From Candidatus Bathyarchaeota archaeon (GTDB taxonomy: Archaea; Thermoproteota; Bathyarchaeia; Bathyarchaeales; Bathycorpusculaceae): a stretch of DNA of 64,000 nucleotides. A program made the translations under genes and the position numbers. Positions 25,889 to 29,888 of this stretch are shown here, in pieces. The DNA is taken from assembly GCA_018396705.1 (NCBI GenBank), contig JAGTQZ010000004.1, positions 1-64,000 of the forward strand. Reading direction: 5' to 3'. The notes beneath the pieces are model-generated. The model saw nothing but the letters and a program-made list of their open reading frames with translations. It did no database searches and had not been told where the DNA came from. Each line of letters starts with the position of its first letter. Position 1 is the first letter of the stretch.

Positions 25889-26623
25889 TCATTCCTTGCT
25901 TATAAGGGATTCCGACTTTTTAGCAAGGAACTCACCTCTAATTTCTCCGTCTCTTATGACATATATTTTATCCATGCAGTTCGCCACCTCCGGATCATGT
26001 GTAACAACAACCACGGTGTGGCCAGCCTTATTGAGGTTTAGGAAAGTTTCCACCACCGTTTTAGCTGAGGCTCTGTCCAAGTTGCCAGTCGGCTCGTCAG
26101 CCAACAAAACAACAGGTTTTCCAACAATGGCCCTAGCTATCGCGACCCTTTGTTGCTGTCCACCGGAAAGCTGGTTTGGCTTTTTGTAAAGCCAACTTTC
26201 TTCTCCACCCGCTTTGGATAACGCGTCTAGGACCATCTTTGCCCTTATACTGCGTGGTATACCTCTAGGTATAAGAGGTAACTCAATATTTTCAAATACT
26301 GTTAACCTGTTGACAAGGTTAAACGTTTGGAAGACAAAACCAAGTTTAGTGTTGCGCAGATTCGCCAGAGTTTTGTCGTCAAGCCTTGAAACGTCAATTC
26401 CGTCAAAGAAAATCTTGCCTTTCGAGGGTCTGTCCAGGAGCCCTATCATGTTTAGGAGGGTCGTTTTCCCGGAGCCTGAAGGCCCCATTATGGCGATGAG
26501 CTGCCCATTATACACTTGAAAATTCACTCTTTTTAAAGCCACACTTGAAATGGCGCCAACTCTGTATTCTTTGTAAACGTCCACTAGCTGAATTATCGGT
26601 TTTGTCTCCGTTTTTTCTTGCAA
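25889..26623 (-). CDS. ABC exporter ATP-binding protein, LolD/MacB type
   Basis: A 244-residue ATPase with Walker A GPSGSGKTT, Q-loop FQTFNLVNRL, signature LSGGQQQR, Walker B VLLADEPTG and switch His VVVVTHD, all in the spacing of the LolD/MacB family. The start is TTG 26623 with GAGG upstream. It is the first gene of the operon with the 1074-residue surface protein and the MacB-like permease, driven by the divergent promoter region shared with the TRAM cluster. Confidence 0.95.
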   Translation of the reverse strand: MQEKTETKPIIQLVDVYKEYRVGAISSVALKRVNFQVYNGQLIAIMGPSGSGKTTLLNMIGLLDRPSKGKIFFDGIDVSRLDDKTLANLRNTKLGFVFQTFNLVNRLTVFENIELPLIPRGIPRSIRAKMVLDALSKAGGEESWLYKKPNQLSGGQQQRVAIARAIVGKPVVLLADEPTGNLDRASAKTVVETFLNLNKAGHTVVVVTHDPEVANCMDKIYVIRDGEIRGEFLAKKSESLISKE

Positions 26624-26670
26624 TTTTAAGCCTCACACCGTCGCTGGTATTAAGCCTAATAAGATGCCAT

Positions 26671-26680
26671 GTTATATACT
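26671..26680 (-). promoter_or_regulatory. TATA box for the ABC exporter operon
   Basis: AGTATATAAC on the minus strand predicts a transcript start near 26649, some 25 bases before the TTG start of the ATPase gene. It faces away from the TRAM-cluster TATA box about 25 bp further on, forming a compact divergent promoter. Confidence 0.45.
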
Positions 26681-26696
26681 GTTTACTCTAGCAAGA

Positions 26697-26703
26697 TTTA
26701 TAT
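26697..26703 (+). promoter_or_regulatory. TATA box for the TRAM cluster
   Basis: TTTATAT centred at 26700 predicts transcription from about 26725, which is the first base of the long hairpin that precedes the first TRAM gene. The 5' UTR would be about 90 nt. Confidence 0.5.
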
Positions 26704-26724
26704 GCATGGATGTTGTCTGTACAA

Positions 26725-26789
26725 ACAAGCCTCAGCCTAAAACTCAGTGTTTCCAGCGAGGCACTTGAGTTTTCGGCTTGAAGGCTTGT
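26725..26789 (+). promoter_or_regulatory. Long imperfect 5'-UTR hairpin before the first TRAM gene
   Basis: The arm 26725-26749 (ACAAGCC...AACTCAGTG) pairs with 26762-26789 (CACTTGAG...GGCTTGT) over roughly 25 base pairs with a few bulges, around a 12-base loop. It begins at the predicted transcript start and ends eight or nine bases before an AAGGA ribosome site. The size and placement suggest a cis-acting RNA element, perhaps bound by the TRAM protein itself or melted by temperature. This is inference. Confidence 0.5.
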
Positions 26790-26814
26790 TCCGCGATAAG
26801 GACGAAAAAACAGT

Positions 26815-27099
26815 ATGCCACGAAGGCTTCCAGAAAAGACAAAAAACATTGAAAGAAAACCGCGACGGTTTGGGAGTAGTAGACGCTTCAACCCCGGTAG
26901 ACCCTATTTTCAAATGGCTCCTGTTAAAGAAAACCAAGAGCTGGAAGTGGTTATAGATGACATTGGAAGCAGGGGAGATGGCATAGCACGTATTCAAGGC
27001 TACTTGATTTTTGTTCCAAACAGCAAGATAGGTGAACGCGTCAGGGTGCGTATTCTGTCCGTCGGCGGAAAATTTGCTATCGCGGAAAGAATAACATAA
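26815..27099 (+). CDS. TRAM-domain RNA-binding protein (first copy)
   Basis: A 94-residue protein with a basic, Arg-rich N-terminal tail (about 40 residues) and a C-terminal TRAM domain from ELEVVIDDIGSRGDGIARIQ through FVPNSKIGERVRVRIL. Small single-TRAM proteins bind RNA and act as RNA chaperones in archaea, with roles proposed in cold adaptation. The gene leads a TRAM / OB-fold / TRAM cluster and is preceded by the long 5'-UTR hairpin. Confidence 0.88.
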   Translation: MPRRLPEKTKNIERKPRRFGSSRRFNPGRPYFQMAPVKENQELEVVIDDIGSRGDGIARIQGYLIFVPNSKIGERVRVRILSVGGKFAIAERIT

Positions 27100-27120
27100 A
27101 CCTAGCTGGATGGTGAATAA

Positions 27121-27411
27121 GTGAAAATTAAGGAACTGCGAAATGGAATGAAACGTGTAAATATTAAAGCCAAAGTCATAGATAAAACTACCCCACGCGA
27201 AGTCATCTCAAGGTTCAAAGACACAACTCACAAGGTGGCAACAGCCATAATCGCAGACGAAACAGGAACCGTAAAGCTGACACTTTGGAACGAGCAAGTA
27301 GATCAAGTAAACATCAACGACACCGTCAAAGTGGAGAATGGTTACGTGACAAGTTTCAAAGGCGAAATTCAACTTAACGTTGGAAGATATGGAAAACTTA
27401 CAGTCGAATAG
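27121..27411 (+). CDS. Single OB-fold nucleic-acid-binding protein (RPA-like)
   Basis: A 96-residue single OB-fold of the RPA/SSB-like type (MKRVNIKAKVIDKTTPREV, ATAIIADETGTVKLTLWNEQ, VKVENGYVTSFKGEIQLNVG). The WNEQVD and VENGYV motifs are typical of archaeal ssDNA- or RNA-binding OB domains. The start is GTG 27121. It lies 21 bases after the first TRAM gene and 40 before the second, so the three are probably co-transcribed and may act together in RNA handling. Confidence 0.87.
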   Translation: MKIKELRNGMKRVNIKAKVIDKTTPREVISRFKDTTHKVATAIIADETGTVKLTLWNEQVDQVNINDTVKVENGYVTSFKGEIQLNVGRYGKLTVE

Positions 27412-27451
27412 CTCGCGGAACGTTTTATCCACGCATAAGAGGTGAACACGT

Positions 27452-27706
27452 ATGGAAGAAAGAAGAGGGTTTGGCGGAAAGAGAGGCTTCGGAAGAGGCG
27501 GACCAAGACGCTTCCCACCAAAACCAGTGGAGATAGGCAAGGAATACGAAGTAGACGTTACAGAAACAAGTCGGCGAGGCGAAGGAATAGCCCGAATTCA
27601 GGGACTAGTAACCTTCATACCAAACACCAAACCAGGTGATCATGTCAAAATAAAAATAACAAGAATAAGCCGGAGATTCGCCGAAGCCGAAGTAGTGACC
27701 CCCTAG
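27452..27706 (+). CDS. TRAM-domain RNA-binding protein (second copy)
   Basis: An 84-residue paralogue of the first TRAM protein. A Gly/Arg-rich tail (RRGFGGKRGFGRGGPRRF) resembling RGG-type RNA-binding segments is followed by a TRAM domain (YEVDVTETSRRGEGIARIQG, TFIPNTKPGDHVKIKI). It is the third gene of the TRAM / OB / TRAM cluster. The shared RxGxGIARIQG core with the first copy points to a local duplication. Confidence 0.88.
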   Translation: MEERRGFGGKRGFGRGGPRRFPPKPVEIGKEYEVDVTETSRRGEGIARIQGLVTFIPNTKPGDHVKIKITRISRRFAEAEVVTP

Positions 27707-27822
27707 GAGAAAAACACAACAAACCAATTATCACCGCTGTTTTACACACCCTTATTTTCAACTTCAGACCGCAAAATTAATTACCGATTTTATATAAGCC
27801 CCACGGGCAAGGGTAGGCTAAA

Positions 27823-28533
27823 ATGGAAGTTGCTGAAGCAAACACTACCAAAAATCGGCATATAACAACCTCAAAACAACTAGCCTTAGCGGTTTGCTTT
27901 TCAGGCTTATACACGATCACATGTTTTATTCCTATCTTCCGAATAGTTGGTTCACAAAACTTCATAACATTAGCAGCTGTGCTTGCCCCTATAATGGGAA
28001 TTTTGTTCGGGCCTCTGGTAAGCGCAACGGCTACTCTTGTTGGCGGCTTTATAGGGTTTTTTGCAGGGGCTCTATCACCACCAAGCCTTGTCTCTGGCGT
28101 AGTTGCCGGACTATTTGCAGGCTTCCTTCAAGTGAGGAAGAGAAAATTGTGTATTTTCTTTTACATAGTCTTGCTTCTTGTTTTCGGTCTTTATCCGCTT
28201 GTGGGACCAGTTTGGCTATTTCCGCCTTACATGTGTTTTCAAGCGGTGGGGCTTTTAATTCTAATCTGGCTGGCTCGGAATAGACGCAACATAAACCTCC
28301 CTGTCAAGTTTTTGATGCTCTCCATGGCATCAACCTTGGCTGGCCAAATTGCAGGTTCCTTGACTTTCGAGGTGCTTTATTGGCCATTTATTCTGCCTGA
28401 CTTGAATGTTTGGAAGGCAATATGGCAAGCGACGACGTTCATCTATCCCGTGGAACGTATTCTCATAGCGTTTGGCTCTACCATTATTGGAGTTGCAGTC
28501 CACAAAGCCCTACAGAATGTTGGGCTCGTTTAA
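27823..28533 (+). CDS. ECF transporter S-component-like membrane protein
   Basis: A 236-residue protein with six or so TM segments. The start of the membrane part (GSQNFITLAAVLAPIMGILF) and GPLVSATATLVGGFIGFFAG resemble the conserved core of ECF-type vitamin-uptake S components. The S component binds the vitamin and relies on a shared EcfAAT module, absent here. The substrate is unknown. It is convergent with cofE, four bases apart. A TATA-like sequence (TTTTATATAAG, about 27788-27798) precedes it. Confidence 0.72.
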   Translation: MEVAEANTTKNRHITTSKQLALAVCFSGLYTITCFIPIFRIVGSQNFITLAAVLAPIMGILFGPLVSATATLVGGFIGFFAGALSPPSLVSGVVAGLFAGFLQVRKRKLCIFFYIVLLLVFGLYPLVGPVWLFPPYMCFQAVGLLILIWLARNRRNINLPVKFLMLSMASTLAGQIAGSLTFEVLYWPFILPDLNVWKAIWQATTFIYPVERILIAFGSTIIGVAVHKALQNVGLV

Positions 28534-28537
28534 GAGT

Positions 28538-29302
28538 TTAATAGCCATGGCCGAATGCGCTCATAAAAACGCATTGGTTATTAGGTAAAGCCAAATCTTC
28601 AGGACCGTAAAAACCATCATCAAACTTTAGAGGGGCTTCCTTAACAAGCACGACAGGGTTTCTTTCAGCAGATTCGCCCATGAGCAAGTGAGCGGCGGAT
28701 GCCAAGTCTTCGGCAACTGCGCGTTGCGTGATCACTATCTCTTTTCCATATAGGTCTTTTAATCCTCGATAGTCCTCTATAGGTTTAAAGCCAGCGACAG
28801 CCAAAGCGATACCTATAGTTCCCTTTCTCAACGGTATTAAGCCACTATCAACGATCATAACTGCCACCTTCTTTCCAGTTCTGCGAAGGATTTCTTCCCT
28901 TAACTGCTTGGCTGTCTCCTTAACGTTTTCAGGCCACAAAACAGCATGGTCCAATGGTGCATTCTTATTGTCTATACCTGCATTAACCGTTAACACATGA
29001 TTTTTGAGTGTTAAAACAGCCTTCTCAACACCACCGTAGATCACGTCCGCTTCACGTAATATCAACTCTGCAAACTCCTTTCGAAGAGAGAACTTTTCAG
29101 CAAGTTCCACTGCCATTTTAGAAGGTTTCACATCACCAAATTTAACAATACGACCCTGTGCATACGCCACAATCTTTGATGCAAAAACCAGAACATCATT
29201 ATCCTCCAATGGAAGCTTCTGTTCAGACAGCGCCTTCAAAACTATATCAACAAGATTGTCGCCAATTCGCACAAGTTTAGTCCTAATAGCGTACAACTTC
29301 AT
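28538..29302 (-). CDS. cofE: Coenzyme F420-0:L-glutamate ligase
   Basis: A 254-residue CofE, which adds gamma-linked glutamates to F420-0 using GTP. Family motifs include an N-terminal DVLVFASKIVAYAQGR, VNAGIDNKNAPLDHAVLWP, VMIVDSGLIPLRKGTIGIAL with the metal/GTP-binding Asp, and DLASAAHLLMGES. Length and layout match archaeal CofE without the FMN-reductase extension found in bacteria. Its presence indicates that the organism makes coenzyme F420, as expected alongside an archaeal Wood-Ljungdahl pathway. No other cof gene is in the window. Confidence 0.95.
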   Translation of the reverse strand: MKLYAIRTKLVRIGDNLVDIVLKALSEQKLPLEDNDVLVFASKIVAYAQGRIVKFGDVKPSKMAVELAEKFSLRKEFAELILREADVIYGGVEKAVLTLKNHVLTVNAGIDNKNAPLDHAVLWPENVKETAKQLREEILRRTGKKVAVMIVDSGLIPLRKGTIGIALAVAGFKPIEDYRGLKDLYGKEIVITQRAVAEDLASAAHLLMGESAERNPVVLVKEAPLKFDDGFYGPEDLALPNNQCVFMSAFGHGY

Positions 29303-29400: not shown

Positions 29401-29601
29401 TTATTTTTTGAGTGCTCTGGCTTTGAAGTTTGTTATGGTTATGCCTACTATTTCGTTGTCTGCTATGCGGTAGATTATTCCATCCTCAACTTCAACGCTA
29501 TCTTGGGCTTGTCTGGGCTTTCCAAAGCTTATATATAGCACATCCGCTTCTTCGTCGTAGTCCAAATCAATTTTTTCTAGGCTTACCGCAACTTTTTCCA
29601 T
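29401..29601 (-). CDS. DUF2283 protein, putative antitoxin
   Basis: A 66-residue DUF2283 protein: DYDEEADVLYISFGKP, then VEVEDGIIYRIADNEIVGIT. Small DUF2283 proteins commonly sit beside a small RNase-like partner in bacteria and archaea and are thought to be antitoxins. The gene overlaps the end of its upstream neighbour by 19 bases, so the pair is co-translated. It lies between 10-bp direct repeats, the right one at the 3' end of tRNA-Trp. Confidence 0.8.
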   Translation of the reverse strand: MEKVAVSLEKIDLDYDEEADVLYISFGKPRQAQDSVEVEDGIIYRIADNEIVGITITNFKARALKK

Positions 29602-29888
29602 ACTATTTCGCCTTTAGCCCTAGCTACATTAGAAGTGAAGTAGGCGGTTATAATAACCTTTTCTTCGCCTTTTTCACGGTAAATAACAATGAGATACTTC
29701 GGTCTAATATGGAGGTTGGCGTAAAATTTTAAAGCTTTAAACTCGCCCCTCAACCCTTTAATAATTAAACCAGGATCTTGAACCGCCATAGCTATTTCAT
29801 GCGTGTAACGTGCAACTTCCGGATGCCTACTAACAATATGATTAAGAACCTTTCTAGATATTTTTATGCTCATTGCTTTCATCTTCAT
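29583..29888 (-). CDS. Small RelE/PBECR-like protein, putative toxin
   Basis: A 101-residue protein with VLNHIVSRHPEVARYTHEIA (a His/Arg-rich helix), PGLIIKGL and a final beta pair YLIVIYREKGEEKVIITAYF, a layout like the BECR-fold RNase toxins (DUF4258/PBECR group). It directly precedes the DUF2283 antitoxin candidate with overlapping ends. ATG 29873 (fifth codon in the frame after two other Met) fits a leaderless transcript from the upstream TATA-like ACCTAAATAAT. The frame is open to 29888. The toxin call is inference from fold pattern and partner. Confidence 0.6.
   Translation of the reverse strand: MKMKAMSIKISRKVLNHIVSRHPEVARYTHEIAMAVQDPGLIIKGLRGEFKALKFYANLHIRPKYLIVIYREKGEEKVIITAYFTSNVARAKGEIVWKKLR

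Follow-up and report, generated by a model that had tools for sequence, protein, structure and literature searches.

The window, that is, the whole stretch of 64,000 nucleotides analysed here, belongs to a Candidatus Bathyarchaeota archaeon with a genome of 1.7 Mb (G000) and shows three small contiguous genes on the plus strand. The first ORF (26815-27099) encodes a TRAM protein of 94 aa (TRAM1; PF01938, E 1.9e-11), the second (27121-27411), which has a GTG start and an SD-like sequence, GGATGGTGA, at 27108-27116, encodes an OB-fold SSB-like protein of 96 aa (PF21473, E 1.2e-14), and the third (27452-27706) encodes a second TRAM protein of 84 aa (TRAM2; PF01938, E 5.8e-18). A match to the OB gene was found in 160 of the 162 genomes of the order, and TRAM2 comes after it, on its 3' side, at most of the loci compared. 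Upstream of the first ORF and on the same strand are a BRE/TATA-like promoter element, AGCAAGATTTATATG (26690-26704), whose position is shared by nearly all relatives, an imperfect hairpin, H1 (26724-26790), a short strand, UUCCGCGAU (26789-26797), whose first two U are common to the foot of H1, and the block AGGACGAA (26799-26806), which is conserved in relatives and probably serves the first ORF as its initiation signal. From the usual archaeal distance between TATA and start, the transcript is predicted to begin at about 26722-26726, that is, at the foot of H1. Further downstream, the minus strand contains an ORF of 254 aa (28538-29302), which from its translation we take to resemble F420-0:gamma-glutamyl ligase, and two small overlapping ORFs of 66 and 101 aa (29401-29888), presumably similar, judging by their translations, to a DUF2283-like protein and a toxin-like partner.

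In the minimum free energy (MFE) fold, H1 has a 4-nt loop and a stem of 29 pairs, interrupted at four places by a bulge or mismatch of one base. The energy of the 151-nt region is -49 kcal/mol, versus -32.7 +/- 3.6 in dinucleotide shuffles (z -4.5, reached by 0 of 200). A preliminary description of this DNA had reported a long structured 5' UTR with a hairpin at the predicted transcript start, and was right in both; its dimensions of about 25 bp with a 12-base loop have to be corrected; a loop of that size results if G-U and terminal pairs are left out. Conservation in relatives, on which it had made the hairpin depend, is found: leader DNA was detected in 29 of the 90 genomes of the family, and the same kind of hairpin is formed at the same place, with varying sequence, in all 31 unique upstream regions folded singly. 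In a structural alignment of 42 leaders, 89.9% of cells are paired, 20 of the 24 pairs show a double-sided change, and the covariation score is 0.384 versus 0.04-0.09 with slid partners; none of 500 shuffles reached the values observed. This alignment includes 42 of 50 sources (L146, L148, L187, L189, L190, L199, L201 and L203 fell below its threshold) and was fitted to the structure of model R1, so its counts lean towards that structure, while the 31 single folds are independent of it; the relatives are non-independent and the shuffle statistics ignore kinship. A weak H1 (z -0.7) is seen in L036, a member of a genus without OB downstream. On this comparative evidence, H1 is conserved as an RNA structure.

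The block AGGACGAA starts 8 nt after the end of H1 and ends 8 nt before the ATG at 26815, so the placing of the hairpin just before the ribosome site in the preliminary description is fair. The 16S 3' end was read as ...GGATCACCTCCT, and the AGGA of AGGACGAA can pair with its UCCU. The block is missing where the leader has no first ORF, and it is retained in two loci, L048 and L054, despite the loss of the long-range helix described below. As a general start signal, AGGACGAA-N-ATG was rejected, with eight occurrences in the genome versus six for the reversed control. In the MFE fold, AGGACGAA and the ATG lie outside H1, and GGA can pair weakly with a leader UCC (MFE folding only, at one temperature setting). 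The proposal of an RNA thermometer is unsupported: nothing in these folds shows the start region pairing in a temperature-dependent way, and the available part of a study of archaeal TRAM genes reports no thermometer-like 5' UTR in its organism (PMC5572242).

Model R1 matches 31 of the 90 family genomes, and 30 of these are exactly the 30 in which the TRAM1 ortholog is full-length or nearly so (E below 1e-27); a match in G029, antisense in an unrelated gene, was judged to be chance. In the order, R1 matches 56 of 162 genomes. Model R2 matches 61 of the 256 genomes of the class: 60 belong to the order and one, G173, lies outside it and was judged to be chance, since OB or TRAM matches beside it reach E 0.59 at best. 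The match G129:C41, in another gene, was also judged to be chance. By these matches the element is a feature at the level of one order of Bathyarchaeia, where in 60 of 162 genomes it precedes an operon formed by a first ORF, the OB-fold/SSB-like gene and TRAM2. The leader is present as a single copy in its own genome, which also excludes a repeat element. A search of the window at 26400-27900 against 4227 Rfam families gave no match at E<=5, and nine relative loci gave two chance-level matches only (E 0.77 and 0.93), both outside the element. A hammerhead ribozyme, prompted by GGACGAAA, was discarded: the core of that ribozyme is CUGAUGA...GAAA, and no CUGAUGA is found here. Searches of open-licence literature showed no account of this element.

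The first ORF is a TRAM gene in some lineages and an in-frame-gutted TRAM gene or an unrelated short ORF in others. The gutted ORFs (L126, L131, L136, L140 and L143) retain the N-terminus and the final IAEK, with an in-frame loss of the TRAM core, and the unrelated ORFs of other families encode about 40-84 aa, with OB and then TRAM2 downstream. Seven leaders without a first ORF (L180-L183, L193, L194 and L196) show an H1-like hairpin directly before OB, with z from -0.6 to -4.1 and above -1.5 in two of the seven. Since the same leader precedes non-TRAM ORFs and H1 stands directly before OB where there is no first ORF, the leader is not tied to TRAM1; as judged from these arrangements, it belongs to the OB operon. 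The TRAM autoregulation suggested in the preliminary description is thus weakened for TRAM1, where it is unlikely to be the core function, and regulation by another product of the operon is possible. The OB upstream regions of 52 genomes without a family or order match, a subset of such genomes, were also compared. Other genera of the window's family (e.g. g3-g5 and g16) show OB with a short leader and neither a long H1 nor the long-range helix, so the element is dispensable there. In L152-L178, from other genera of this family, the OB leader is much shorter, and some of these leaders form a small hairpin, GCCUUCC...GGAAG, which may be a reduced H1. In L151/L167 (G047), TRAM1 is broken, with only its 3' half left behind the apparent start of another gene; the leader is gone and OB follows. 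TRAM1 is frameshifted in L199, from one of the genomes of L199-L202 (family f6).

The preliminary description stopped at the hairpin. Right after H1, the conserved strand UUCCGCGAU is able to pair with AUCGCGGAA at 27079-27087 on the plus strand, its complement near the end of the first ORF, where it forms the TRAM1 codons I-A-E. This long-range helix, P2, loops out the first ORF. Both strands are present in 54 of 59 leaders; the other five, L195 and L199-L202, show no P2 or a changed one. In L199-L202, a variant long-range helix, CCGC + AGGG with CCCU + GCGG, was seen by eye in place of UUCCGCGAU/AUCGCGGAA. Over nine pairs, 96.6% of cells are paired in 43 distinct strand pairs, versus 31-56% with slid partners. 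Double-sided changes (e.g. GAU/AUC to GAC/GUC) occur in 11 cells, a count reached by 47 of 2000 shuffles; this covariation is modest because the core of P2 is invariant. P2 is part of the MFE of 39 of the 54 transcripts, with a median probability of 0.97, and is missing from 15; in the window's own transcript it is outside the MFE, its probability is 0.007 and the fold containing it is 3.6 kcal/mol worse. A further inner helix (GGACGAA/UUCGCC or CAGGAC/GUUCCUG), seen in some MFEs or by eye, differs between lineages and was not retained.

The 3' strand of P2 shows a codon lock in the TRAM1 genes: the third base is C, as (G/A)TC, in 29 of 30 Val or Ile codons, and the Ala codon is GCG in 29 of 30; at other positions, in 28 of those genes, GCG makes up 24 of 126 Ala codons. 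Among the short first ORFs, each of the frames 0, 1 and 2 is used to read this strand, so the constraint on it is on the RNA. In one genus (L048 and L054), the TRAM1 protein is kept (81% identity) and there is no OB or TRAM2 downstream; here the leader strand and the ORF strand of P2 are both changed and their complementarity is gone, so that both strands were lost jointly with the OB gene.

The reading frame is nearly always open through the 3' strand of P2. This is so in 21 of 23 short first ORFs, versus 3.7 expected (sum of shuffle fractions), the two closed ones being L145 and L201; for L190, the ATG giving the longest frame was taken from several nearby, a choice biased towards openness, the sequence of L189 includes a run of N, and the count leaves out L131 (50 aa, open by eye) and L130 (at a contig end). 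A frameshift separates L187 from the closely related L188 and L191, and all three are open. Together with the excess of open frames, these frameshifted ORFs point to selection for translation through P2, and not for a peptide. Relative to the OB start, the 21 open short ORFs stop between -26 and +14 nt, and in the window the stop of the first ORF lies about 21 nt before it, at or near the next start, as is typical of termination-reinitiation coupling. By this comparison, the amino-acid sequence of the first ORF is free to vary, with the frame nearly always open through P2 and ending near the OB start. The spacing is also kept: in all 54 leaders, 24-27 nt separate the 5' strand of P2 from the first ATG and 24-38 nt separate the 3' end of P2 from the OB start. 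In the seven leaders folded that lack a first ORF, the distance from H1 to the OB start is, by eye, about 23-32 nt, so a formed P2 gives OB about the same spacing to H1 as these leaders do.

The features named so far, H1, P2, the open frame, the spacing and the joint loss, all come from comparison among relatives, and as a structure the element is well supported by it. The reading we prefer, with a probability of about 0.55, is that of a cis-acting leader RNA of the operon, in which H1 would be the control domain, P2 would loop out the first ORF, and the control of OB and TRAM2 would be sensitive to translation. Readings which need only one of the two helices agree less well with the data. That P2 is a side effect, with the TRAM end conserved as protein (FAIAE), the leader match arising by chance and only H1 mattering, is consistent with an invariant core that limits covariation, but it is hard to reconcile with the codon lock, with the use of three frames and of non-TRAM ORFs, with the joint loss in L048 and L054 or with the fall in pairing on sliding, and we regard it as very improbable. 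Plain autoregulation of TRAM1, or an RNA thermometer, acting through H1 alone would agree with the position of H1 next to the TRAM1 start and with the unfolding of 5' UTR hairpins by a Methanococcus TRAM protein, as given in the available text of PMC6705878. However, the leader is kept before non-TRAM first ORFs, H1 is kept without any first ORF, and P2 is left unexplained, which makes this reading doubtful at best.

Two further readings assign the element to another process. A role of H1 and P2 in RNA processing or stability, in which a closed 5' domain protects the transcript or a cut separates the first cistron from OB-TRAM2, would fit the location of H1 at the very 5' end with P2 right behind it, enclosing one cistron, and a cut between cistrons would agree equally well with the disappearance of P2 along with the OB gene. 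But no bulge-helix-bulge splice pattern was seen at P2 on inspection by eye, and the open frame through P2 in 21 of 23 ORFs has no explanation under processing, which we therefore hold to be unlikely. The locus could also make a trans-acting non-coding RNA, sharing only its promoter with the operon, since the enclosed ORF is short and its sequence is not conserved in several families; the single copy, the presence of OB as the next gene in nearly every case, the open frames kept and the lack of an Rfam match leave little room for it. The preferred reading, a leader RNA acting in cis, has its own difficulty: the OB ribosome site is downstream of P2 and is not covered by it, so the route of repression is not obvious.

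The nearest known design is that of the E. coli L20 operon, in which the leader pairs across a small cistron with a sequence beside the downstream cistron. That pairing sits on the downstream ribosome site and is opened when the enclosed cistron is translated, and the protein encoded downstream binds RNA. The element studied here resembles it in its likely working, without being a member. Both show a long-range pairing which encloses a cistron, here P2, which is adjacent to H1 and is outside the MFE of the window's own transcript. The genes differ, TRAM and OB-fold SSB-like here versus infC, rpmI and rplT (IF3, L35 and L20), and sequence and structure are unrelated; in addition, P2 is upstream of the OB ribosome site instead of on it, the enclosed ORF is replaced or gutted in several lineages, and the ligand is putative. 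The L20 pseudoknot and the rpmI-rplT coupling are cited in the available texts of PMC6728339 and PMC12548453. In the cases treated in the available text of PMC12548453, translation of an upstream ORF is likewise expected to melt a long-range helix, but that helix covers the downstream initiation region, whereas P2 stops 24-38 nt short of the start codon. According to the available text of PMC7247131, whose main text contains no word beginning with TRAM or Bathyarch, the cis-regulatory RNAs known from archaea are few. The archaeal ribosomal-protein leaders described there (S15, eL15 and L4) share with this element a structured 5' leader and an operon for nucleic-acid-binding proteins; they differ in genes and structure, and the present element spans a cistron. 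TRAM0076 of Methanococcus maripaludis acts on 5' UTR hairpins and so joins TRAM proteins and such hairpins, but the three tested hairpins are of 9-13 bp and lie in 5' UTRs of other genes, and the available text describes no conserved element or long-range pairing (PMC6705878).

In the leader RNA model, H1 would be the regulatory domain, needed about 25-35 nt before the OB start; without a first ORF it stands there directly, and with one P2 would bring it there. Translation of the first ORF would start from AGGACGAA-ATG, and its ribosomes would melt P2 and finish beside the OB start, P2 thereby serving as a reporter of first-ORF translation. We infer the regulator and the direction of control as follows: an abundant product of the operon, OB protein or TRAM2, would most likely bind H1/P2 and reduce initiation at the first ORF, P2 would then form, and OB-TRAM2 would be shut down. 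When the product is scarce, translation would open P2 and OB would be made by coupling. The OB gene is, as far as the comparison indicates, probably controlled by the second, long-range stem, and autoregulation by the OB-fold protein or TRAM2 is possible.

More tentatively, this may be a kind of control new to archaea, an RNA clasp that senses translation. The first ORF would be a "ribosome track" (TRAM, gutted TRAM or arbitrary) where selection keeps the P2 strands and the open frame, and one hairpin would control the adjacent ORF as well as an SSB-like gene at a distance of up to about 300 nt. The element spans a whole cistron and is strongly supported by comparison, in a lineage that is largely uncultured. 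Its evolutionary series, with the first ORF present, gutted, replaced or absent and P2 kept or co-lost, allows the hairpin, the clasp and the ORF to be told apart in their roles, and the element suggests how the doses of an archaeal SSB-like protein and of an RNA chaperone may be set jointly.
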